A program made the translations under genes and the position numbers. DNA of 35,323 nt, from the NCBI GenBank assembly GCA_024682995.1, contig JAIKYR010000031.1, positions 1-35,323 of the forward strand, written 5' to 3'. Source of the stretch: Bacteroidales bacterium (GTDB taxonomy: Bacteria > Bacteroidota > Bacteroidia > Bacteroidales > WCHB1-69). Below, piece by piece: positions 1 to 10,440 of this stretch. How positions within the stretch are numbered: the first letter of the stretch is position 1; each line of letters begins with the position of its first letter. The notes beneath the pieces are model-generated. The model saw only the letters and a list, made by a program, of their open reading frames with translations, searched no databases and was not told where the DNA came from.

Positions 1-1
1 C

Positions 2-91
2 ACTTTCTTCTTGGGCACCTATCCCGGCCTTACCGATGAAATGTTCAAGTACGCAGAAGAGAAATTGGATGAATTCGTGAAACAATATTAA
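2..91 (+). CDS. rfbH: C-terminal end of an RfbH-type CDP-4-keto-6-deoxyglucose 3-dehydrase (partial)
   Basis: Only the last 29 codons are present; the frame is open from base 2 and stops with TAA at 89-91. The translated tail contains FFLGTYPGLTDEM followed by an acidic helix ending EFVKQY. This is how the RfbH/DdhC/AscC (E1) group of the DegT/DnrJ/EryC1 PLP enzymes normally ends (F-x-G-x-YPGLT-x-EM). E1 removes the C3 hydroxyl of CDP-4-keto-6-deoxyglucose using PMP and a [2Fe-2S] cluster, and needs a reductase partner (E3). The next gene starts 4 bases downstream and encodes such a reductase, which supports the call. The catalytic part lies outside the window, so the assignment rests on the tail motif plus context. 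Confidence 0.72.
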   Translation, partial: TFFLGTYPGLTDEMFKYAEEKLDEFVKQY

Positions 92-95
92 CATT

Positions 96-779
96 ATGTT
101 GGCAAAAAAATACTTATCAGAGGTCGTTTCCATAGCGAACCCATTCAAGGGTATCTATACCGTGGAATTCAAGTCGCTGGAAAGGCCTTACAAATATGCC
201 CCGGGGCAGTTCCTCCATATCGCCATTGACGAGGAATACGACGGCATCGGACAGTGGCCGGAATCGCGCTGCTTCTCCATGCAGAGCGACCCTGCCGAGG
301 ATGTCATCCGCATCACCTACGCCGTGAAAGGAAACTTCACACAGGAGATGGAAAAGACCTTGGCAGTGGGCAGGGAAGTGTGGCTCAAACTTCCGTTTGG
401 CGAACTCTTCACACAGCCGCACAACAAAACCAATACCGTGTTCATTGCCGGCGGCACGGGCGTGACGCCCTTCCTTTCGCTCTTCACCCACGAATCATTC
501 AGGGACTATGCGGACCCGAAGATTTATCTGGGTTACAAAAACGAAGACTACTACATCTACCAAAAAGAGTTCGCCGCCATCCAGAACGACAATGCCCGAA
601 TCACCATCTTTTACGAAAACAAGGATGGCATAATCGACATTGCGAAGATTCACGAGCAGAACGGCAACGATAGCAGCTATTTCATCTCCGGCCCTCCCGT
701 GATGATCAAAATTTTCAAGGAAAAGCTCATCGAACTCGGCGTGCCGAAGGAGCATGTGCTCACAGACGATTGGGAATAA
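96..779 (+). CDS. FAD/NAD(P)H reductase, CDP-6-deoxyglucoseen reductase-like, without Fe-S domain
   Basis: A 227-residue protein of the ferredoxin-NADP reductase fold. The FAD-binding beta barrel fills about residues 1-105, with the flavin motif R58-C-F-S61 and PGQF at 36-39. The NAD(P)-binding half follows, with the pyridine-nucleotide loop GGTGVTP at 119-125 and a C-terminal FISGPP segment. Following RfbH by 4 bases, it most likely passes electrons from NAD(P)H to the E1 dehydrase during C3 deoxygenation. Classical E3 proteins (AscD/DdhD, roughly 330 residues) carry an N-terminal plant-type ferredoxin domain with four Cys. Here that domain is absent and the only cysteine in the protein is C59. 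Electrons would have to pass directly from flavin to the dehydrase cluster or through a separate ferredoxin. The ATG at 96 is the first in frame after the upstream stop. Confidence 0.75.
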   Translation: MLAKKYLSEVVSIANPFKGIYTVEFKSLERPYKYAPGQFLHIAIDEEYDGIGQWPESRCFSMQSDPAEDVIRITYAVKGNFTQEMEKTLAVGREVWLKLPFGELFTQPHNKTNTVFIAGGTGVTPFLSLFTHESFRDYADPKIYLGYKNEDYYIYQKEFAAIQNDNARITIFYENKDGIIDIAKIHEQNGNDSSYFISGPPVMIKIFKEKLIELGVPKEHVLTDDWE

Positions 780-809
780 TTTGGAACGTTAATACAACTT
801 TTTAATAAA

Positions 810-1586
810 ATGAACTTACAAGAACGTCAAATGCTGGACTCCTTACTTGAATTAAAGGAAGTATATGGAGTTTATGGAATAAAAGCGGAATTTGAGGCCG
901 AAGGGGCCCGTATGGATGAACTTATCCGTCTTCGGGAACTGATATTGCGTGCCGATTTGAAATTTATCACCAAAATCGGCGGATGCGAAGCTGTGCATGA
1001 CATGCAACAATGCAAATTGCTGGGCGCCACGGGCGTCATGGCCCCGATGATTGAAACCCCCTTTGCGCTGAGCAAGTTCGTCGGCGCGGCAAAACGTGTT
1101 TATGGTGACGACATGGATTCTGTGGAATGGATCATCAATGCTGAAACGAAGACTTGCCATGCCAATTACAAAGAGATATTGGAAGTTGGCAGCGGGTTCT
1201 TGAAAACCGTCACCGTTGGTCGCAGTGATCTTTCTGCCTCTATGGGGATTGCGCGCAAGGATATTGAAACAGAACCTGTCTTCGAAGCCACACGAGATTT
1301 GTTGCAACAATCACGCCAGGCGGGAATCACCACCAATTTTGGTGGCAATATTGGTGTTGAAAGTATTCCGTTCATTGTCAGGATAAGTGACGTGGCTGAT
1401 CGTTTTGAAACACGCAAAGTAGTGATTTCCATTGAAAAAGATGAAAACAAGTTAAAACAAACCATCCACAAAGCCTTGGATTTTGAACTTCAATGGCTTT
1501 TATATAAAAAATCCTACTATACCCGCCTCTCCTCCGAGGACGAGGCCCGCATAGAGCGTATGCGTTATCAATTAAACAAAGATTAA
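810..1586 (+). CDS. HpcH/HpaI-family class II aldolase / citrate lyase-like protein
   Basis: 258 residues with the single TIM-barrel layout of the HpcH/HpaI family, whose members make or break C-C bonds adjacent to pyruvate or oxaloacetate using a divalent metal. Visible landmarks are KAEFEAEG at 25-32, PMIET at 79-83, the metal-ligand strand INAETKT with E112, and GRSDLSASMG with D140. The E112-D140 spacing is close to that of the two metal ligands in HpaI. The gene stops 2 bases before the PfkB kinase start, so the two are almost certainly co-translated. Paired with a 2-keto-3-deoxygluconate-kinase-like protein, it could split a 2-keto-3-deoxy acid or its phosphate to give pyruvate. It could equally build a sugar-acid precursor. 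The substrate cannot be read from sequence. Confidence 0.75.
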   Translation: MNLQERQMLDSLLELKEVYGVYGIKAEFEAEGARMDELIRLRELILRADLKFITKIGGCEAVHDMQQCKLLGATGVMAPMIETPFALSKFVGAAKRVYGDDMDSVEWIINAETKTCHANYKEILEVGSGFLKTVTVGRSDLSASMGIARKDIETEPVFEATRDLLQQSRQAGITTNFGGNIGVESIPFIVRISDVADRFETRKVVISIEKDENKLKQTIHKALDFELQWLLYKKSYYTRLSSEDEARIERMRYQLNKD

Positions 1587-1588
1587 GT

Positions 1589-2611
1589 ATGGACAAAGTC
1601 GTTACTTTTGGTGAATTGATGTTGAAACTCTCCCCGGAAGGATATGGGAGACTTATCCAAGCACATCAACTCAATGTGGGGTACAGCGGGGCGGAAGCCA
1701 ACGTGGCCGTTTGTTTGGCCAACTTCGGACAGGCTGTTTCTTTTGTAACAGCTGTACCTGATAATATTTTAGGCGATGCCGCGATTAATGCCATGCGACA
1801 TTATGGGGTAGATGTCTCCAACATCATTCGCAATGACGGGCGCTTAGGCATCTATTTTTCAGAAAAAGGCGCAAGCCAACGCCCTTCGAAAGTGGTGTAC
1901 GACCGGAAACATTCCGCCATCGCCTTGGCAACGGCATCCGATTTTGACTGGGATGCCATCTTCCATGATGCCACATGGTTCCATTTCACGGGCATCACCC
2001 CCGCTTTGAGCGACAATGCCGCTGCCAATTGCCTTGCCGCCTGCAAAATGGCAAAATCCAAAGGCATGACCATCAGTTGCGACCTCAATTATCGGTCAAA
2101 ACTTTGGAGCAGGGAAAAAGCCACTACGGTAATGACCGAGTTATGCCAATATGTGGATGTTTGCATAGCTAATGAAGCGGATGCCGCTGACGTGTTCGGG
2201 ATCAAAGCCGAACAGTGCGATGTGGACAAAGGCATCCTTAATGAACAATCCTACCTTTCTGTAGCCCAACAGTTACAAAAGAAGTTTGGCTTCAAACAAG
2301 TGGCCATCACATTACGGGAATCCATCTCTGCCAGCGACAACAACTGGTCGGCCATCCTGTTGGATGACAACATAATCCATACAAGCCACAAATATCCCAT
2401 TCATATCGTTGACCGGATAGGCGGTGGCGACTCCTTTGGTGCAGGTCTCGTTTACGCCATATCAGCGGGTTATGACCCACAGCACGCTTTGGAGTTCGCA
2501 GTGGCAGCCAGTTGCCTGAAGCAAACCATTGAAGGGGATTTCAACCTCGTGACAATCGACGAGGTTGAATCTCTTGTTAATGGAAACCAATCGGGTAGAA
2601 TATCAAGATAG
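1589..2611 (+). CDS. PfkB-family sugar kinase, 2-keto-3-deoxygluconate kinase-like
   Basis: 340 residues of the ribokinase/PfkB fold. The N-terminus (TFGELMLKLSPEG) and the glycine-rich GYSGAEANVAVCLANFG segment are typical of 2-dehydro-3-deoxygluconokinase (KdgK)-like members. The C-terminal anion hole and catalytic motif IGGGDSFGAG is intact, with D281 as the expected base. The kinase would phosphorylate a 2-keto-3-deoxy sugar acid or a related sugar with ATP in the cytoplasm. It sits 2 bases after the HpaI-type aldolase and 19 bases before the ThDP enzyme, in the middle of a nucleotide-sugar operon, which is not a usual setting for hexuronate catabolism. Other PfkB substrates (a ketose, or a deoxy sugar made in this pathway) are possible. 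Confidence 0.72.
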   Translation: MDKVVTFGELMLKLSPEGYGRLIQAHQLNVGYSGAEANVAVCLANFGQAVSFVTAVPDNILGDAAINAMRHYGVDVSNIIRNDGRLGIYFSEKGASQRPSKVVYDRKHSAIALATASDFDWDAIFHDATWFHFTGITPALSDNAAANCLAACKMAKSKGMTISCDLNYRSKLWSREKATTVMTELCQYVDVCIANEADAADVFGIKAEQCDVDKGILNEQSYLSVAQQLQKKFGFKQVAITLRESISASDNNWSAILLDDNIIHTSHKYPIHIVDRIGGGDSFGAGLVYAISAGYDPQHALEFAVAASCLKQTIEGDFNLVTIDEVESLVNGNQSGRISR

Positions 2612-2630
2612 ACCATATAAATGCCTTTTT

Positions 2631-4445
2631 ATGATTAAAGTTAGTGATTTTATTTTCCAATATCTGGTTGAAAAATACAATATCCATCATTGTTTTATGG
2701 TGACAGGCGGTGGAGCCATGCACCTGAACGACTCCATAGGTCACACTAAAGGCCTGACGTACATCTGCAACCATCATGAACAGGCATCTGCCATTGCCGG
2801 AGAGGGCTATTACCGGGCTTGCGGCCAACTGGCCGTCACCTGCGTCACGACCGGACCCGGCGGCACCAATGCTGTTACTGGAGTCCTTGGACAATATCTT
2901 GATTCCATTCCCGGATTGTATATTTCCGGCCAAATCAAGACTTCCACATACAAACACACTTACCCTTATCTGAATTTGCGGCAGTTGGGTGATCAGGAGG
3001 CGGATATCGTTTCCATTGTTACACCCATTACAAAGTATGCCAAGACCATTTATAATCCGTTGGATATAAAATACGAATTGGATAAAGCCATTGCCATCGC
3101 TTTGGATGGCCGGCCCGGACCCGTTTGGCTGGACATTCCCTTGGACGTGCAAGGCGCCACCGTTGACGAAACCCAATTCCGGGAGTTTGACGCCTCAACG
3201 GAGATAATTGACCCTGTCAAACATTCCTTGGTGGATGAACAAATCAAACAGCTTATAGAAAAAATCAAAGGTGCGAAAAGTCCTGTCATTTACGTGGGTA
3301 ATGGCGTTCGCCTGGCCAAACGTGAGAAGGAATTTGTCCGACTGGCAGAAATCCTGAACATTCCCGTTGTTACCGCTATCAGCGGTTCCGACATCATCTG
3401 GTACAATCATCCTCTTTGCTATGGCAAACCCGGCATTTGCGGCGACCGCATCGGGAACATCATGGTTCAAAATGCCGACCTGCTGATTGTCATGGGTACT
3501 CGCCTGAGCATCCGACAAGTGAGTTATGCGTATGACCTGCTGGCTCCAAATGCCTTCAAGGTGATGGTGGACATTGACCTTGCCGAGATGCAAAAACCCA
3601 CATTGAACATCGACATGCCCATCCATGTAAACCTTTCAAAATTTATGGATAAGATGCTTGTCGCTCTTGGAAACGAAACGACACTGCCCGATTTTAAAGA
3701 GTGGCGGGAATGGGGAAGAACCATTGAAAGCAAGCTGCCCACACTGTTTGACGACAATCCGGACTGCGAAGGATATGCCAATTCGTACAAGTTCGCCGAT
3801 GAACTCTTCAAACAACTGAAAGATGGCGATGTGGTTGTCACAGGCAATGGAACCGCCTACACCTGCACCTATCAGGCGATGCGCGTGAACATGGGCGTCC
3901 GCGTTTTTGCCAACCAGGGCTGTGCTGCCATGGGTTATGGATTGCCCGCTGCCATCGGGGCGTGTGTGAGCAACAACAATGGGAAAACCGTTTGCGTGAC
4001 GGGTGACGGTTCCATCCAAATGAACATTCAGGAACTTCAAACCATTGTCACAAACAAGTTGCCACTGAAAATCTTCGTGTTAGAGAATGAAAGCTACCTG
4101 GCTATCAAAACAACCCAAAAAGCTTTCTTTAACGGGAATTTCACGGGAAGCAACCCCACAAGCGGTGTGATATGCCCTGAATTGAAACGAATTGCGGAAG
4201 CATACGGAATCCCCTTCACACGGGTGTCAAGCAATGAGGGATTGCACGATGTCATTTCTCAAACGCTGAATGCGGAAGGAGCCATGATTTGCGAGGTGAA
4301 GATGCATCCCGAACAGACCCTCTTCCCGAAATCCGCATCCTTCATGGATAAGGCAACAGGGAAGATGACGTCCGCACCACTTGACAAAATGGCGCCGTTC
4401 ATGCCTGAGGAACTACAATCACAATGTATATTCACAAGCAAATAA
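2631..4445 (+). CDS. Thiamine diphosphate-dependent enzyme, acetolactate synthase-like (candidate YerE-type sugar acyltransferase)
   Basis: 604 residues from the ATG at 2631. An in-frame start exists at 2565 but would overlap the kinase gene and adds 22 residues (rich in N, R and Y) that do not fit the family start. The three ThDP-enzyme domains are visible: the N-terminal PYR domain with catalytic Glu50 in NHHEQASAIAGEGYYR; the central nucleotide-binding domain (about 200-340); and the C-terminal PP domain with the ThDP/Mg motif G458-D-G followed by QMNIQEL. These features match acetolactate synthase (IlvB). In the yersiniose pathway a flavin-containing relative, YerE, transfers a two-carbon unit from pyruvate to C4 of CDP-3,6-dideoxy-4-ketoglucose. 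The RfbH neighbour makes that role more likely than branched-chain amino acid synthesis, and no small ilvN-like subunit gene is adjacent. Substrate is inferred. Confidence 0.78.
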   Translation: MIKVSDFIFQYLVEKYNIHHCFMVTGGGAMHLNDSIGHTKGLTYICNHHEQASAIAGEGYYRACGQLAVTCVTTGPGGTNAVTGVLGQYLDSIPGLYISGQIKTSTYKHTYPYLNLRQLGDQEADIVSIVTPITKYAKTIYNPLDIKYELDKAIAIALDGRPGPVWLDIPLDVQGATVDETQFREFDASTEIIDPVKHSLVDEQIKQLIEKIKGAKSPVIYVGNGVRLAKREKEFVRLAEILNIPVVTAISGSDIIWYNHPLCYGKPGICGDRIGNIMVQNADLLIVMGTRLSIRQVSYAYDLLAPNAFKVMVDIDLAEMQKPTLNIDMPIHVNLSKFMDKMLVALGNETTLPDFKEWREWGRTIESKLPTLFDDNPDCEGYANSYKFADELFKQLKDGDVVVTGNGTAYTCTYQAMRVNMGVRVFANQGCAAMGYGLPAAIGACVSNNNGKTVCVTGDGSIQMNIQELQTIVTNKLPLKIFVLENESYLAIKTTQKAFFNGNFTGSNPTSGVICPELKRIAEAYGIPFTRVSSNEGLHDVISQTLNAEGAMICEVKMHPEQTLFPKSASFMDKATGKMTSAPLDKMAPFMPEELQSQCIFTSK

Positions 4446-4459
4446 AGCCTTCTTTTATC

Positions 4460-5350
4460 ATGCAGAACCTCATCGTCACAGGTGCTACCGGGTGTGTGGG
4501 AAGTGCGGTCGTCAGACAAGCGCTTGCTCAAGGTATGAACGTGACATGCATCGTCCACAAGGGTTCCCAAAGGCTGTCGAATCTTCCGGAAAGTGAGCGG
4601 ATGCACATTGCAGAATGCAACCTCACGGATTATTCCTCGCTGGAATTACAAGGCCAATACGATGCGTTCATACACCTGTCATGGGAAAAGACCTACGGCG
4701 CCTCCCGCGACGATGCTGATATCCAAACCCGCAACATCCAATACACCCTCGACGCCGTCAAATTGGCTCACCGTTGTGGCTGCAAAGTCTTTGTAGGTGC
4801 CGGTTCGCAGGCGGAATATGGGGTGCAGTCGCAAAACCTTACGCCAAACCTGCCCGTCAGCCCCGAAAGCGGATATGGCATTGCCAAATACGCGGCAGGA
4901 AAGCTGTCGTCCATGCTGTGCAAAAGCCTGGGTATCCGTCACAACTGGGTGCGTATTCTCAGCGTTTTTGGCCCGAATGACGGAGAAAACACGCTGATCA
5001 GTTACGCCATCAGGGAGCTGAAAGCCGGACGTTCCCCCGAGCTCACAAAATGCGAGCAGATTTGGGACTACCTTTATGCCGACGATGCCGGCGACGCCAT
5101 TCTGTCAGTTGCCGCCAACGGCGTTGACGGCAAAACATACCCTTTGGGGTCAGGACAAGGAAGAAAGTTGTCAGAATACATTGAGGAGATCCGCCAGATC
5201 ATCAATCCTTCCGTTAAAGTCCAATATGGTGTTAAAGACTATTATCCGCATCAGCCGATGCACCTGGTGGCCGACATCAGCGAGCTGACCAACGACACGG
5301 GCTGGCAACCACGAACGTCCTTTGAAGAGGGCATCCGCTCTTTTGTATAA
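4460..5350 (+). CDS. Extended short-chain dehydrogenase / NAD(P)-dependent epimerase-reductase
   Basis: 296 residues from the ATG at 4460. A more upstream in-frame start at 4424 overlaps the preceding gene and would put 12 extra residues before the Rossmann strand. The N-terminus MQNLIVTGATGCVG gives the extended-SDR dinucleotide loop GATGCVG (8-14). The active site is seen as S116 in GAGSQAEYG and Y139-G-I-A-K143. The C-terminal part (SELTNDTGWQP followed by FEEGI) is typical of nucleotide-sugar epimerases and dehydratases. Starting 14 bases after the ThDP enzyme, it is probably the last step of the nucleotide-sugar operon. In a yersiniose-like route it would reduce the newly attached acetyl ketone (YerF role). 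It could instead be a 4-keto-reductase or epimerase on the CDP sugar. Confidence 0.8.
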   Translation: MQNLIVTGATGCVGSAVVRQALAQGMNVTCIVHKGSQRLSNLPESERMHIAECNLTDYSSLELQGQYDAFIHLSWEKTYGASRDDADIQTRNIQYTLDAVKLAHRCGCKVFVGAGSQAEYGVQSQNLTPNLPVSPESGYGIAKYAAGKLSSMLCKSLGIRHNWVRILSVFGPNDGENTLISYAIRELKAGRSPELTKCEQIWDYLYADDAGDAILSVAANGVDGKTYPLGSGQGRKLSEYIEEIRQIINPSVKVQYGVKDYYPHQPMHLVADISELTNDTGWQPRTSFEEGIRSFV

Positions 5351-5377
5351 AGCCAACAAAATTTTCAGTTTTTTTTA

Positions 5378-5405
5378 TTTGCAATTTGTTTTTTCCGTAT
5401 TTTTG
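5378..5405 (+). promoter_or_regulatory. Bacteroidota-type promoter upstream of AAA ATPase
   Basis: TTTG at 5378-5381 and TATTTTTG (TAnnTTTG) at 5398-5405 are separated by 16 bases, slightly short for the -33/-7 pair. The element sits just after the end of the SDR gene and about 80 bases before the AAA ATPase start, so that gene probably has its own transcript. Between promoter and gene lies GGCGTTACGCC (5431-5441), an inverted repeat with a single central base. Confidence 0.5.
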
Positions 5406-5484
5406 CAGCGTTAACACCATTACGCTTTAAGGCGTTACGCCTCAAGGCATAATAGAGTTGTTGGACTACAAAATCATGTTGATT

Positions 5485-6615
5485 ATGAATCCATTCCGAT
5501 ATGGTCGCATCGTTTACGGCGACTATTTTTATGACCGAAAGGAGGAGCTTGCCCACATTACTGCCACACTCAATGGTGGCAATAATGTTGTTTTATTTGC
5601 CCCACGCAGATACGGAAAGACCTCCTTGGTGTTCAAGGTGATGGATTCTTTGTCAACGGAAGGGACAATCTGCATCTATTTTGATTGCTCGACGGCTTTC
5701 TCTCTCGAATCATTTGCTGAACTGTTTGTCCGGGCGGTAGCTGCAAAGCAAAGTAACTGGCAACGTTTTTTGACAATGCTGTCCGGTTTGGTGAAAACAC
5801 TACGCCCAACCATTTCCATAGACGAATCCGGATTGCCACAACTCAGTATCGAATTCACGGAACCCAAAATATCGGTCGGGACATTGGCTGACATTTTCAA
5901 CCTGCCCGAAAAACTGTCAGAGGATACGGGGGTACGGGTTGTGGTCGTTTTTGACGAGTTCCAGGACATTCAAAAATTCAGCAAATATGGTCTTGAGAAC
6001 ATACTGCGCAATAAAATCCAACAGCAGAAACATGTCAACTACCTGTTTTTAGGCAGCAAAACCCATATTTTGTCGGACATGTTCAACAACAAGAACCGGG
6101 CGTTCTACAATTCCTCCTATCATTACCAGCTAAGCAAACTTCCCGAACAGGAGACCATTGCCTTTTTGAAAGACCGATTCTCTCAATCCGGCATTTTAAT
6201 TGGAGATGCTGAAGCAAAGCAGATTATTGATGAAACAGATAACGTTCCCTATTACATCCAATTGCTCGCATCGGAAATATGGCAATGCACCATTACGGAA
6301 AAAGCAGTCGTAACACCGGAAATCATCCGGCAATGCGCACAACAAATCATCATTGTCAAGGATGATTATTACAATGAGTTGTTCGGGAGATTGTCGGAAA
6401 CGCAATGCAAATTGCTTATTGCTCTCACTAAAGAGCAGACCGGTATTTTTTCAGCATCGTATATCCGTAAATATCATCTGCATGCCAGTTCGAGTGTACA
6501 AAAGGCATCCTCGGCATTGGTGGAAGACGGGATCATCGACAAAGAATCCGACAAATATCATATTTGTGATCCGTTTTTCAAACGATATATCCAACAAACA
6601 TTCTCTCAGAAATAG
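5485..6615 (+). CDS. AAA-family ATPase of archaeal-ATPase (PF01637-like) type
   Basis: 376 residues from the ATG at 5485. This start gives MNPFRYGRIVYGDYFYDRKEEL, the usual beginning of this Bacteroidota family; TTG/ATG codons at 5458 and 5476 are alternatives. A P-loop is seen as FAPRRYGKTSL (38-48, Lys45), Walker B as VVVVFDEFQDI with D157-E158, and a sensor-like segment follows at YLFLGSKTH. The last about 90 residues look like a winged-helix domain. Such proteins occur in many scattered copies in Bacteroidota genomes and their function is not established; regulatory, STAND-like and selfish roles have all been considered. It has no obvious link to glycan synthesis, is flanked by its own promoter, and splits the sugar operon from the glycosyltransferases. 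This suggests an inserted accessory gene. Confidence 0.75.
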   Translation: MNPFRYGRIVYGDYFYDRKEELAHITATLNGGNNVVLFAPRRYGKTSLVFKVMDSLSTEGTICIYFDCSTAFSLESFAELFVRAVAAKQSNWQRFLTMLSGLVKTLRPTISIDESGLPQLSIEFTEPKISVGTLADIFNLPEKLSEDTGVRVVVVFDEFQDIQKFSKYGLENILRNKIQQQKHVNYLFLGSKTHILSDMFNNKNRAFYNSSYHYQLSKLPEQETIAFLKDRFSQSGILIGDAEAKQIIDETDNVPYYIQLLASEIWQCTITEKAVVTPEIIRQCAQQIIIVKDDYYNELFGRLSETQCKLLIALTKEQTGIFSASYIRKYHLHASSSVQKASSALVEDGIIDKESDKYHICDPFFKRYIQQTFSQK

Positions 6616-6642
6616 TTTCACACGTAAAAGTCAACATCATCA

Positions 6643-7605
6643 ATGAAAAAAATCAGCATACTGATTCCCTGTTATAACGAAGAGGAAAACGTTGTGCCAA
6701 TGAGCAAAGCCGTGGTAAACGAACTGACCACGAAACTGCCACAATATGACTATGAACTCATTTTCATTGACAACGACTCGCAGGACAATACCCGACCGTT
6801 GCTCCGCGAGATTTGCAAAAACAACCCGAAAATCAAAGCCATCTTCAATGCCAAGAACTTCGGGCAATTCAACAGTCCTTACTACGGCATGCTTCAAACC
6901 ACAGGCGACTGCACCATTACGATGTGCTGCGACTTTCAGGATCCGGTTGATTTGATTCCCAAGATGGTAGAAACATGGGAAAAAGGGGCAAAAATCGTCT
7001 CCTGCATCAAAACCAAAAGTAAAGAGAATCCCATAATGCGCTTTTTTCGCACCATCTACTACAAAATCATCAAGAAAATGTCATCTGTGGACCAGATTGA
7101 GCATTTTACCGGCTTTGGTCTTTATGACAAAAATTTTATCGAGGTGTTACGCAATCTGAAAGACCCCACCCCGTTCATTCGCGGCATTGTGGCTGAGCTG
7201 GGTTACAAACGGGTGGACATTGAATACACCCAGGCAAAGCGACGTGCCGGGAAAACACACAATAATTTCTTCACCCTGTTTGATGCGGCCATGCTCAGCT
7301 TCACCAGCTACACCAAGGTAGGCCTGCATCTCGTCACCTTCGCAGGATTAATCCTGTCCAGTCTGTCAATATTGGCGGCATTAGTTTACCTTGTGCTGAA
7401 GCTGATTTATTGGGATTCCTTCTCCGCCGGCCTGGCACCGCTGATCATCGGCTTGTTCTTCATCAATGCCGTAGAATTGCTCTTTATCGGCTTCGTAGGC
7501 GAATATGTGATGAGCATCAACACCCGCGTGATGAACCGCCCGCTGGTCATTGAAGAGGAACGGATCAATTTTGATGACAACCAAAATGATAGCCCTTCGG
7601 AATAA
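6643..7605 (+). CDS. GtrB-like family 2 glycosyltransferase with two C-terminal membrane helices
   Basis: 320 residues. The GT-A domain starts at residue 1 (KKISILIPCYNEEENV) with the nucleotide-binding D43-N-D45 and a metal/acceptor motif CCDFQDP at 96-101. Close GtrB/ArnC/DPM relatives usually read DADLQDP here. Two membrane spans follow at about 225-250 and 258-285, and a short charged cytoplasmic tail ends the protein. This is the architecture of polyprenyl-phosphate glycosyltransferases such as GtrB, which load a sugar from a nucleotide donor onto undecaprenyl phosphate at the inner face of the cytoplasmic membrane. The nearby GtrA flippase and polytopic GT-C-like proteins make a complete Gtr-type set. 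Donor sugar unknown; a product of the upstream operon is one possibility. Confidence 0.83.
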   Translation: MKKISILIPCYNEEENVVPMSKAVVNELTTKLPQYDYELIFIDNDSQDNTRPLLREICKNNPKIKAIFNAKNFGQFNSPYYGMLQTTGDCTITMCCDFQDPVDLIPKMVETWEKGAKIVSCIKTKSKENPIMRFFRTIYYKIIKKMSSVDQIEHFTGFGLYDKNFIEVLRNLKDPTPFIRGIVAELGYKRVDIEYTQAKRRAGKTHNNFFTLFDAAMLSFTSYTKVGLHLVTFAGLILSSLSILAALVYLVLKLIYWDSFSAGLAPLIIGLFFINAVELLFIGFVGEYVMSINTRVMNRPLVIEEERINFDDNQNDSPSE

Positions 7606-7671
7606 TGAATTAGGACAGTATTATGAAAAATGTCTTAACGAAAAAATGCATAACAAAGAGATATAAATATT

Positions 7672-10440
7672 ATGAGTTCTAAAAAATCAAAAAAGCAGGT
7701 TAAAAGCAATAATCCAATTTTGGGAAAACCACACACCAACGATTTGAATAACGCAAACAATGAACTTGTCTCCAACATTGTTCAATGGTCATTTTGTATT
7801 ATCGGGACCATTTTCCTGTTTTCATGTTTAGGTTTACTAATCACCAAAATATACCACCCGGAAACAGAAAGCATTGTAAAGGCCGCGTTAGAAAAATGTA
7901 TTGTGACGGACTTCCAACCAGAACCCGTGGAGGCCTTGTTGTTCCGAACAGGACTGATCTTTATCCCCTGCTGTCTTCTTGCCCTTTACTTTCTCACCAC
8001 TCGCCCATTTTTCAAAAAAATAACCCAAAACAAGGGTGTGGCCTACGCACTGATCCTATTAGCCTCAGCCGGCATCGCGTTCCTGGGATATTATGTGTTT
8101 GCTCAAGACAATCCTACCTATCTTGAAACGGTTGGACGGTTACACAACGAACGGGACCGTCTGGCGGTCACCAATTATGACTTCTTCTTCAAAGACACCT
8201 TCCTTGAGACTCACATGGCCCAATATTTCCTGCTATGGGTATCCTTGTTACTCTTATTCTATCTGTTTGTGGTCAAGTTTGTTCGGGGAATCGGATCCAA
8301 GGTGTATAAAATTTTATCTTCCGCTGTGCTTTTTTTGTTTGCTGGAATCATCCTGATTCAGATTTTCAGCATGATGCACTTCGATATGCCGTTAAATTGG
8401 GAAAACCAATTTGACTTCAACGTTGTTTTTTACTCGGCCACCCAAGTGAATGCGGGCAGTCAGCTGCTGACGGACGGTTTCACAAACACGTATGGCCTAT
8501 ATCCTCATTTTCTCCAACCTTTTTTCAAACTGTTTGGATTTTCCGTCCCCAACTTCACTCTTGTAATGAGTCTTCTTATTGTCTTCACCTTTGCTGCCAT
8601 TCTGATGTTTTTATATACAACCGTTCAAGACAAAATCATTGTGCTTCTTGGATTCGGGACATGCCTGTATTTCCCCTATCTGTTGAATCGGTTGGTTATG
8701 AATTTTGATTCCGCTTTTGCCATTTTCCCCATCCGAACCACCCCTGTGGCCTTTTTATTGTTGACCGTCTCCCTCTTCCTGATTGCAGAGCAGAAACAGC
8801 AGAAAAAATTCCAGCTTATCGTTTATTATTTAGGAAGTGTTTTAATGGCTTTTGGGGTACTATGGAACTTTGAATTCGGATTCGTATCTTATTTTTGCTG
8901 GCTTGTATTCTTATGCTACCTTGACTTTTTCTCCTCAGAAAAGAAAATCAACTGGAAAAGAATATTGTATCATTTCTGTATCTGGTTAGCTGCTTTATTT
9001 GTTGCCTTTATCATTTATGGTCTCATCCAGTTGGTTCAATACGGCCACTTCCCTGATTTAAGACTGCTGACCTCCACGCTCTCTGTTTTTGGAGGTATGG
9101 GATATTTCATGCTGCCCATGCCGCTGTTCCACCCGTGGATGTTGCTCGTCCTGGTGCATATCTTCTGTCTGGTGTATGCTATCAGCCGACTTTTCAAAAA
9201 GGACATCACCCCAAAATCTGCCGCCATATTCCTGATGGCTATTTTGGGATGCGGCCTCTTCGCATACTATCAGGGCAGAAGCCACAACTGGAATTTCACC
9301 ACCAGCTTGCTCCCGGGCCTCATTGAGCTCACACTGCTCACCGACGAATTATGGGCTACCTTCAAACGTACGAACAATTTCATCTTAACTCCGCTGCTGT
9401 ATTTGTGCTTTGCCTGTCTGTTCCTTTCAACCATCAGTCTCAGCGCCGCATCTTCCGACATTAGTAACTTGGCCAATCAAACCGTCCGCAAAGAATTGAA
9501 GCCTGCCTATGCCAAAGAGAAAAAATATATCAACAGCGTCAACCATTTCATCGATTCCTGCGATATCTCCTCCGACCGTGTCATATTGCTGTGTTCCAAC
9601 AAGTACCAAGGGTTGTTCATGCAGGATAAGCGGATGCGTTCCGCCGTCAATCCGGGAATTCTGGATTTGTTCTTTAAAACAGATGCCGAGCGATATGTGA
9701 CAGCCCTGGCAGACTCCGCTTACGATGTGTTTTTAGGCAGCAATTTCTACTACCCCTATCTGTCAGACATCCGCACTGTTTTGGCTTCAGAATACCAAGT
9801 GGTGGACCAGCTATATGACACAACCGCTCTGATTTTTGCCCATCTGCAGAAACGGAACGTTTCGACACCCAACACTGTTTTCTTCCCCAAGAACAAATCA
9901 ACCATTCTGCACGAGAAATTCACCAAAGACTCCACCAATTACCGTCAGTTGTGCGATCTGTCGCAAAACGGACGGGACAGCTTGGATATCCCATCCACCT
10001 TTACTGTGGAAATCCTCTTCCGTGCCGACAGTTTGCAATTCTACCAATACCCCGTACTATGTGCCAACAACACAGACAGTTCAGGCTTTGCAATATTCAA
10101 CACAAATAACAAGGGAAAAACGGACGAATACTATATCAACATTGGTGGTATCGGCTTCCCTATCCAGCTGAAGTCCAACCAATGGCATTACCTTACCGTA
10201 GTGTTTTCCGGACAACAAGTTTATGCCTTTGATAACGGGCAAATGAAAGCTGCCGTCACGTTCCCTTCCACCTATAAGAAATCCGAGAACAAGCTATATG
10301 TTGGAAACAACGGTTCCCTGCGACACTTCTCCGGTATCATCAATGAGGTCTCTATCTCCTCGGGTGCTATATCGGCACAAGAAATCGCAAACACCTGGCA
10401 GAAAATCAATTCCTGGATATCCCAAAACCGTCAGCAATAG
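7672..10440 (+). CDS. Polytopic membrane protein with C-terminal LamG-like domain, putative GT-C glycosyltransferase
   Basis: 922 residues. A Lys-rich cytoplasmic N-terminus (1-34) is followed by about twelve to thirteen hydrophobic spans up to about residue 595. There is a long early loop rich in charged and aromatic residues (HNERDRLAVTNYDFFFKD, about 158-175). After the last span comes a soluble, probably periplasmic segment. From about 763 to 915 there is a concanavalin/LamG-like beta sandwich (TFTVEILFRADSL, QWHYLTVVFSGQQVYAFDNG, FSGIINEVSISSGAIS). The topology and position between GtrB-like and GtrA genes suggest the enzyme that takes a polyprenyl-phosphate sugar and adds it to a surface glycan, with LamG as a glycan-binding part. 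No catalytic DxD or DE motif could be assigned with certainty, so this is inference. Confidence 0.6.
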   Translation: MSSKKSKKQVKSNNPILGKPHTNDLNNANNELVSNIVQWSFCIIGTIFLFSCLGLLITKIYHPETESIVKAALEKCIVTDFQPEPVEALLFRTGLIFIPCCLLALYFLTTRPFFKKITQNKGVAYALILLASAGIAFLGYYVFAQDNPTYLETVGRLHNERDRLAVTNYDFFFKDTFLETHMAQYFLLWVSLLLLFYLFVVKFVRGIGSKVYKILSSAVLFLFAGIILIQIFSMMHFDMPLNWENQFDFNVVFYSATQVNAGSQLLTDGFTNTYGLYPHFLQPFFKLFGFSVPNFTLVMSLLIVFTFAAILMFLYTTVQDKIIVLLGFGTCLYFPYLLNRLVMNFDSAFAIFPIRTTPVAFLLLTVSLFLIAEQKQQKKFQLIVYYLGSVLMAFGVLWNFEFGFVSYFCWLVFLCYLDFFSSEKKINWKRILYHFCIWLAALFVAFIIYGLIQLVQYGHFPDLRLLTSTLSVFGGMGYFMLPMPLFHPWMLLVLVHIFCLVYAISRLFKKDITPKSAAIFLMAILGCGLFAYYQGRSHNWNFTTSLLPGLIELTLLTDELWATFKRTNNFILTPLLYLCFACLFLSTISLSAASSDISNLANQTVRKELKPAYAKEKKYINSVNHFIDSCDISSDRVILLCSNKYQGLFMQDKRMRSAVNPGILDLFFKTDAERYVTALADSAYDVFLGSNFYYPYLSDIRTVLASEYQVVDQLYDTTALIFAHLQKRNVSTPNTVFFPKNKSTILHEKFTKDSTNYRQLCDLSQNGRDSLDIPSTFTVEILFRADSLQFYQYPVLCANNTDSSGFAIFNTNNKGKTDEYYINIGGIGFPIQLKSNQWHYLTVVFSGQQVYAFDNGQMKAAVTFPSTYKKSENKLYVGNNGSLRHFSGIINEVSISSGAISAQEIANTWQKINSWISQNRQQ

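Follow-up and report, generated by a model that had tools for sequence, protein, structure and literature searches.

The window analysed here is a stretch of 35,323 nucleotides from the genome of a rumen Bacteroidales bacterium of the WCHB1-69 lineage (assembly GCA_024682995.1, contig JAIKYR010000031.1), and it starts at the first base of its contig (1–35323). Its 5′-end carries genes for the tail of the dehydratase RfbH, a flavin reductase, an HpaI-like aldolase, a kinase of the 2-keto-3-deoxygluconate (KDG) kinase type, a thiamine diphosphate (ThDP)-dependent enzyme and an extended short-chain dehydrogenase/reductase (SDR). This operon can confidently be assigned to a pathway in which a YerE-like enzyme branches a 3,6-dideoxyhexose at C4. 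It is moderately probable that the aldolase makes the donor of a long branch, giving a sugar of the erwiniose or caryophyllose kind. The genes present, the families they belong to, the conservation of their surroundings and the occurrence there of unrelated donor-forming families are observed; all the reactions, the identity of the donor and the part played by the kinase are inferred.

The first-pass annotation had described a tight six-gene operon at positions 2–5350, including a ThDP enzyme with its catalytic Glu50, and the open reading frame (ORF) and domain calls bear this out: all six genes are present, all on the forward strand, with intergenic gaps of 2–30 bases (Table 1). Since the window begins at the start of its contig, the upstream half of the operon is known only from related loci (compared loci and genomes carry L and G numbers, respectively). 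The rfbH codons at positions 2–79 match positions 411–436 of 440 in the NCBIfam RfbH model NF011936, and all 26 of these residues are identical in the full-length RfbH of L002; the RfbH of L004 scores 676.8 bits against a cut-off of 423. The flavin reductase is 99.6% identical in L002 and 50% identical in L048, where it adjoins RfbH. A classical E3 is expected to carry a ferredoxin domain; no 2Fe-2S domain was found in the window reductase by Pfam scan (E ≤ 0.001). In L003, likewise, none was found between RfbH and the aldolase. A protein 58.5% identical to the window SDR adjoins the aldolase in L007.

The gene order in L002 is RfbF, RfbG, AAA protein, RfbH, reductase, aldolase, kinase, ThDP enzyme, SDR and family 2 glycosyltransferase (GT2), and that in L004 is RfbF, RfbG, RfbH, reductase, aldolase, kinase, ThDP enzyme, SDR, AAA protein and GT2. 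The order kept in these two loci, together with the joint presence of the ThDP enzyme and the aldolase in other families and in another phylum, indicates that the genes are not grouped by chance.

Table 1. Predicted genes in the first 12 kb of the window
Positions	Strand	Predicted product	Match	Remarks
2..91	+	3′-end of rfbH (CDP-6-deoxy-4-keto-glucose 3-dehydratase, E1)		Last 30 codons including stop; remainder off contig
96..779	+	Flavin/NAD(P)H reductase	PF00175	Candidate E3 partner of RfbH
810..1586	+	Divergent HpcH/HpaI-like class II aldolase	PF03328, 42.4 bits (cut-off 25)	
1589..2611	+	PfkB kinase, KDG kinase type	PF00294, 131.9 bits; PDB 2afb, 374 bits	
2631..4445	+	YerE-like ThDP lyase	Three TPP domains	Searched from 2634, one codon past the ATG
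4460..5350	+	Extended SDR	PF01370	Candidate for a YerF-like role, by analogy, in reducing the side-chain ketone
5458..6615	+	AAA/ATPase_2 protein	PF01637	
6643..7605	+	GT2 glycosyltransferase, ArnC/PgfS-like	PF00535	
7672..10440	+	922-aa ORF		Apparently hydrophobic-rich; same-length ORFs in L002 and L003
10583..11074	+	GtrA-like protein, possible flippase	PF04138, 93.5 bits	
11081..11809	+	Second GT2 glycosyltransferase	PF00535	

The ThDP enzyme and its known relatives

The best solved relative of the window ThDP protein is PDB 8rph (404 bits, with acetolactate synthases at 244 bits or less), which is JanthE, a ketone-accepting YerE-like enzyme (PMC12188165). The two proteins are identical at 205 of 591 aligned positions. 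In a 94-row tree, both fall into one 91-row group with the three IlvB sequences outside it (branch support 100); this was a quick tree without a mixture model, in which long branches were flagged, including that of JanthE, the only characterised member. The sequences of YerE, ErwE and MMAR_2332 are absent from the tree, and those of L011 (same place as L057), L055 and L058 (both short) were left out. The Glu of the HHEQA motif is residue 50 counted from the ATG, and the canonical GDG motif is kept (GDGS), whereas JanthE has CDG. At 330 bits, the window protein falls short of the acetolactate synthase cut-off (TIGR00118, 538), which the three IlvB proteins of the tree exceed (720–724 bits). Six scanned ThDP relatives also fall below it, five at 332–367 bits and that of L126 with no match at E ≤ 1e-90. 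The ThDP gene stands beside genes of CDP-3,6-dideoxyhexose synthesis, namely rfbF, rfbG and rfbH in L002 and L004 and the rfbH tail in the window. From these comparisons the window protein is confidently placed with the YerE-like, ketone-accepting lyases, apart from acetolactate synthase. The branched dideoxy sugar of the first-pass annotation thus stands as a CDP-3,6-dideoxyhexose branching pathway, on the RfbF/RfbG/RfbH genes of L002 and L004 and the grouping with JanthE, while the octose that it had named as product is less likely.

Three YerE-like ThDP genes (L135, L144 and L145) lie within 35 kb of one genome (G929 contig 1, 1327899–1362609). In a ThDP search of a plasmid collection, the annotated matches among those listed are ilv genes.

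Two known systems resemble the locus by description, ErwE of Pectobacterium atrosepticum (erwiniose) and MMAR_2332 of Mycobacterium marinum (caryophyllose), each a YerE-like ThDP enzyme with a 4-hydroxy-2-oxo acid donor (PMC12247030). According to the available text of that paper, ErwE refuses pyruvate and prefers 4-hydroxy-2-oxo acids, MMAR_2332 behaves similarly, and CDP-4-keto-3,6-dideoxy-glucose is the acceptor stated for ErwE. The likeness to the window enzyme is one of description, and donor-making genes are not described for either enzyme in the same text. JanthE accepts 4-hydroxy-2-oxovalerate with benzaldehyde, and its physiological substrates are stated to be unidentified in the available text of PMC12188165. 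The branch of caryophyllose is given as 1,3,4,5-tetrahydroxyhexyl (PMC5706390, available text). An aldol formed from pyruvate would account for the missing hydroxyl at C2 of that branch. The yersiniose pathway of Y. pseudotuberculosis (YerE, YerF) shares the CDP-3,6-dideoxy-4-keto-glucose acceptor, a ThDP ligase and an SDR with the window, but YerE is described as moving a C3 chain at most and preferring pyruvate (PMC12247030, available text), and the window locus has an extra aldolase and kinase. Erwiniose and caryophyllose are known chemically; the genetic source of the donor acid is not stated in the available text of PMC12247030 or PMC12188165, and no report of a donor-making aldolase gene was found in the literature searched, with key primary papers beyond its reach.

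The aldolase and other candidate donor makers

An AlphaFold model of the aldolase built from nine sequences has a mean predicted local distance difference test score of 89.7, and its best PDB matches in Foldseek are HpaI pyruvate aldolases; a PDB search with the aldolase sequence by itself returned nothing at E ≤ 0.1. Besides the modelled fold, it shares with the class II pyruvate aldolases HpaI and YfaU a Glu and an Asp that we take to bind metal: in a weak match (E 0.009), E112 and D140 correspond to E153 and D179 of YfaU. Both are invariant in 20 aldolase rows (two of which represent one locus), as are K25, E27, E29, E31 and K55. The reaction proposed for the enzyme, on fold and family membership, is an aldol addition of pyruvate to an aldehyde that yields a 4-hydroxy-2-oxo acid.

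The aldolase is rare. With the window's own or the centre genome counted in each case, it occurs in 2 of 393 genomes of the order, 9 of 395 of a phylum sample of Bacteroidota, a single one of the 220 genomes in the family to which G823 (the Eubacterium ruminantium genome) belongs and 5 of 40 of the genus, the last being the window's own, three that match L002–L004 by coordinates, and G807 (L056). The phylum sample was drawn twice, the identity of both draws being inferred from the listed handles, and the genomes in all these samples are related to one another. Eight of the nine aldolase-bearing genomes of the phylum sample, the window's own among them, also have the ThDP gene, with a gap of less than 3.5 kb between the genes in each (hypergeometric 8e-12, kinship ignored). 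The two genes are side by side in L057 (G012, same order as the window). The window aldolase is 60–61% identical to those of L006–L009, compared with about 40% for the ThDP enzyme, as if the aldolase had joined two ThDP lineages.

The ThDP gene was found in 16 of the 395 Bacteroidota genomes, and in 13 of these, the window's own included, a type of enzyme that forms 4-hydroxy-2-oxo acids is encoded nearby (locus classes from home-made profiles, checked against Pfam for representatives only). Among the 15 other genomes, the enzyme within 5.5 kb is an HpaI-like aldolase in seven (L043–L047, L049 and L050), NeuB in four (L048, L051, L052 and L054) and DmpG with DmpF in one (L053). L026 is on a 3-kb contig, too short for a class, and no donor maker was found in the stretch covered of L055 and L058, neither of which yielded rfb genes; the contig of L058 begins at the ThDP gene. 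In L053, DmpG and DmpF exceed their NCBIfam cut-offs (391 over 286 and 372.9 over 282), and the ThDP enzyme is the sister of JanthE in the tree. The product named by DmpG, 4-hydroxy-2-oxopentanoate, is the same as a named ErwE donor. HpaI, DmpG and NeuB belong to different families, and their known products share a 3-deoxy-2-oxo-4-hydroxy acid pattern. The most economical reading is that the donor is a product of the aldolase.

The family of G823, whose locus L007 (Eubacterium ruminantium ATCC 17233) has the HpaI-like aldolase, contains the ThDP gene in 64 of 220 genomes. Its 68 ThDP loci were classified by centre-to-centre distance with a limit of 5.3 kb, and 24 have a candidate donor maker, either an HMGL-like protein of ~535 aa related to DmpG (22) or a strong NeuB match (2). 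One further locus has a weak HMGL match, and nine are cut off too near the gene to classify. By eye, in two listings, 16 of the 17 closest HMGL-like matches in the 220 genomes lie within 2 kb of a ThDP match. The ~535-aa proteins are, by family, candidate aldolases. Over 73 rows of the ThDP tree, 5 switches between having and not having a donor maker are enough; 500 shuffles average 22.6, and none of them gives so low a number. This count omits 10 rows with contig-cut context, six with weak NeuB and one with weak HMGL matches, and because the shuffles ignore kinship it reflects clustering and not independent gains. Some positions of the ThDP enzyme, such as Y413 in the window protein, separate the loci with a donor maker from those without.

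Proposed pathway and competing readings

The product of the proposed pathway would be a nucleotide-activated sugar that bears at C4 a branch of more than two carbons. RfbF, RfbG, RfbH and the flavin reductase would yield CDP-3,6-dideoxy-4-keto-glucose, and the aldolase would join pyruvate and an aldehyde into a 4-hydroxy-2-oxo (2-keto-3-deoxy) acid, perhaps KDG. The YerE-like enzyme would decarboxylate that acid and attach what is left of it, a hydroxyacyl chain, at C4 of the CDP-sugar, and the SDR may reduce the new side-chain ketone, by analogy with YerF. The GT2 at 6643–7605 would then move the sugar to polyprenyl phosphate, and the downstream GT2 and GtrA genes may carry it to the cell surface.

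The kinase matches the KDG kinase 2afb over residues 3–340 and falls under all the NCBIfam KDG kinase cut-offs (257.5 against 440 for NF041332, 52 against 400 for NF052444 and 571 against 700 for NF041633). Its gene is the sole match in the window's genome at E ≤ 1e-10, and it stays with the aldolase in L002–L005 and L056. With a KDG-type kinase as partner of the aldolase, our guess is that the acid is KDG and the product an eleven-carbon sugar. A wider scheme, which we put forward tentatively and hold to be somewhat short of probable, is modular: a YerE-like ligase would be combined with an exchangeable donor maker (HpaI-like, NeuB or DmpG/HMGL-like) and interchangeable trimmers (kinase, phosphatase or AroB-like phospholyase), the present case giving an unreported eleven-carbon sugar of a 3,6-dideoxyhexose and a five-carbon KDG chain. 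If neighbouring aldolases do reveal the donor, the side-chain length and pattern of many unseen bacterial surface sugars could be deduced from genomes, and matched aldolase/ThDP pairs would be available for tertiary-alcohol synthesis. The prediction is approachable in a named strain through the L007 locus.

Several observations weigh against a donor made by the aldolase. The preference of YerE for pyruvate, which JanthE also takes (PMC12247030, available text), means that membership of the YerE-like group does not tell the donor. The aldolase is just 15–18% identical to HpaI structures, with the invariant KxExExE and K55 as features of its own. The catalytic residues of HpaI are an Arg and a His-Asp pair. 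Judged by sequence, these seem to be replaced (K55; KxExExE; no His), so aldolase chemistry is no more than likely. The kinase would be superfluous if the free acid is the donor, and at other loci the partner of the donor maker is a phosphatase (a HAD phosphatase in L043, L046 and L057; in the G823 family, a HAD_2 protein at 14 loci) or, elsewhere, an SDR together with an AroB-like putative phospholyase (TIGR04425). On a Novosphingobium humi plasmid (L012, 10037–12807), the genes for RfbF, RfbG and the aldolase are consecutive, with no RfbH or ThDP gene found within 12 kb, and an Ilyobacter relative sits among aconitase and dehydrogenase genes, which looks like acid metabolism. In the G823 family, 28 of the 68 ThDP loci show no member of the three enzyme classes within 5.3 kb (in L113, one of the 28, an HMGL-like gene lies 6.2 kb away), which indicates that YerE-like enzymes do not need a donor maker. 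Seven of the 28 are minimal RfbFGH-ThDP-SDR-GT2 loci (L114, L117, L119, L126, L131, L146 and L159), for which pyruvate as donor would fit. A further six of the 68 have weak NeuB matches only, perhaps ordinary NeuB of the sialic acid type. Looser HMGL-like relatives lie within 5 kb of the ThDP gene in 7 of 40 matches, counted by eye, and the one ~535-aa HMGL-like protein that was scanned scores 89.7 against the aldolase cut-off of 286.

The aldolase and kinase also occur as a pair where the ThDP enzyme is missing. In L005 (9242–11790) they lie beside a CTP_transf_3 gene for a cytidylyltransferase distantly like PseF/KdsB, with no ThDP match anywhere in the genome. In L056 (7256–12600) they adjoin aminotransferases and an ATP-grasp ligase, with no ThDP gene in the 18 kb covered. 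The pair can therefore serve other products, and these contexts can be read as a second use of it; the combination of aldolase, kinase, ThDP enzyme and RfbH that the first-pass annotation had suggested searching for recurs in L002 and L004. An unlikely alternative is that in the window, too, the pair belongs to a separate pathway within the operon: it would supply the same polysaccharide with an ulosonic-acid-like or other unit, and the ThDP enzyme, with pyruvate as donor, would give an ordinary octose of the yersiniose type. The minimal loci, seven of the 68 in the G823 family, would suit this reading as well. It is opposed by the L005 cytidylyltransferase, which has no relative in the aldolase and ThDP loci searched (one match lies elsewhere, in L152, with no aldolase), by the higher conservation of the aldolase than of the ThDP enzyme between the window and L006–L009, and by the unrelated donor makers that occupy the same neighbourhood.

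A donor made by the aldolase also fits better than the quite improbable reading of the pair as a pyruvate supply, which the first-pass annotation had offered alongside another acyl donor. Here the kinase, being of the KDG kinase type, would make 2-keto-3-deoxy-6-phosphogluconate (KDPG) from KDG, the aldolase would split it, and the ThDP enzyme would use the pyruvate to form a branched octose. HpaI-type enzymes can indeed cleave KDPG-like acids. Against this, every cell has ample pyruvate, and the stretch covered of L006, L007 and L009, where the aldolase adjoins the ThDP gene, yielded no kinase (the contig of L008 ends behind the aldolase). The enzyme near the ThDP gene in L048, L051, L052 and L054 is NeuB, which consumes phosphoenolpyruvate and so is no pyruvate source. 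The pyruvate supply was rejected on these NeuB neighbours and kinase-free loci; for the aldolase, "another acyl donor" survives, and the DmpF/DmpG neighbours likewise make pyruvate less likely.

Uronate catabolism, the other setting considered in the first-pass annotation, was rejected on gene contexts, since the aldolases of the window, L002–L005 and L056 lie among polysaccharide genes as far as their neighbours are annotated. A role of the ThDP protein as housekeeping acetolactate synthase is scarcely credible and was rejected on the tree, the cut-off score and separate genes in relatives. Acetolactate synthase models do head the NCBIfam matches of the protein, and no match in the window's genome (87.75% complete) passes the cut-off, although each of the 14 control genomes has one that does, but the protein groups with JanthE and not with anabolic IlvB, a possibility raised at first pass, no ilvN-like family turned up among the window proteins scanned, and the genomes of L006, L007 and L009 hold a separate gene (27–28% identity) above the cut-off.

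Downstream genes and accessory proteins

The AAA/ATPase_2 protein probably lies outside the sugar pathway; its gene follows the SDR in L004 and is missing at that place in L002. The GT2 at 6643–7605 scores under the cut-offs of NF047588 and NF007986 and has 68–70% identical counterparts in L006, L007 and L009. The 922-aa ORF is possibly an outer-face glycosyltransferase, judging from its analogy to such proteins.

Positions 1–7700 of the window form a mosaic. DNA identity to L002 is 97–100% until ~2700 and 82–93% beyond, and that to L004 is 96–100% from ~5100 to 7200, including the AAA gene, and 71–93% before. From the alignments, this looks like recombination inside the polysaccharide locus of the genus.

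Further genes accompany the donor makers at other loci. In L051 (7032–8570) and L054 (8754–10340), a single ORF adjoining the YerE-like ThDP gene encodes NeuB with a C-terminal cupin domain. An AroB-related putative sugar phosphate phospholyase (TIGR04425) and a short SDR lie by the aldolase or NeuB in L045 (3772–4830) and L048 (12983–14062); speculatively, the two could give the branch precursor a terminal methyl group. A metallo-beta-lactamase-fold protein is encoded between RfbG and RfbH in L046 (10979–11731), and unannotated ORFs of similar size occupy the same place in L047, L049 and L054. In L116, L118, L127, L128 and L138, two proteins of ~438 aa, one representative of which has a weak AMP-binding match, and one of ~405 aa are encoded between RfbH and the ThDP enzyme, and these are perhaps another donor supply.

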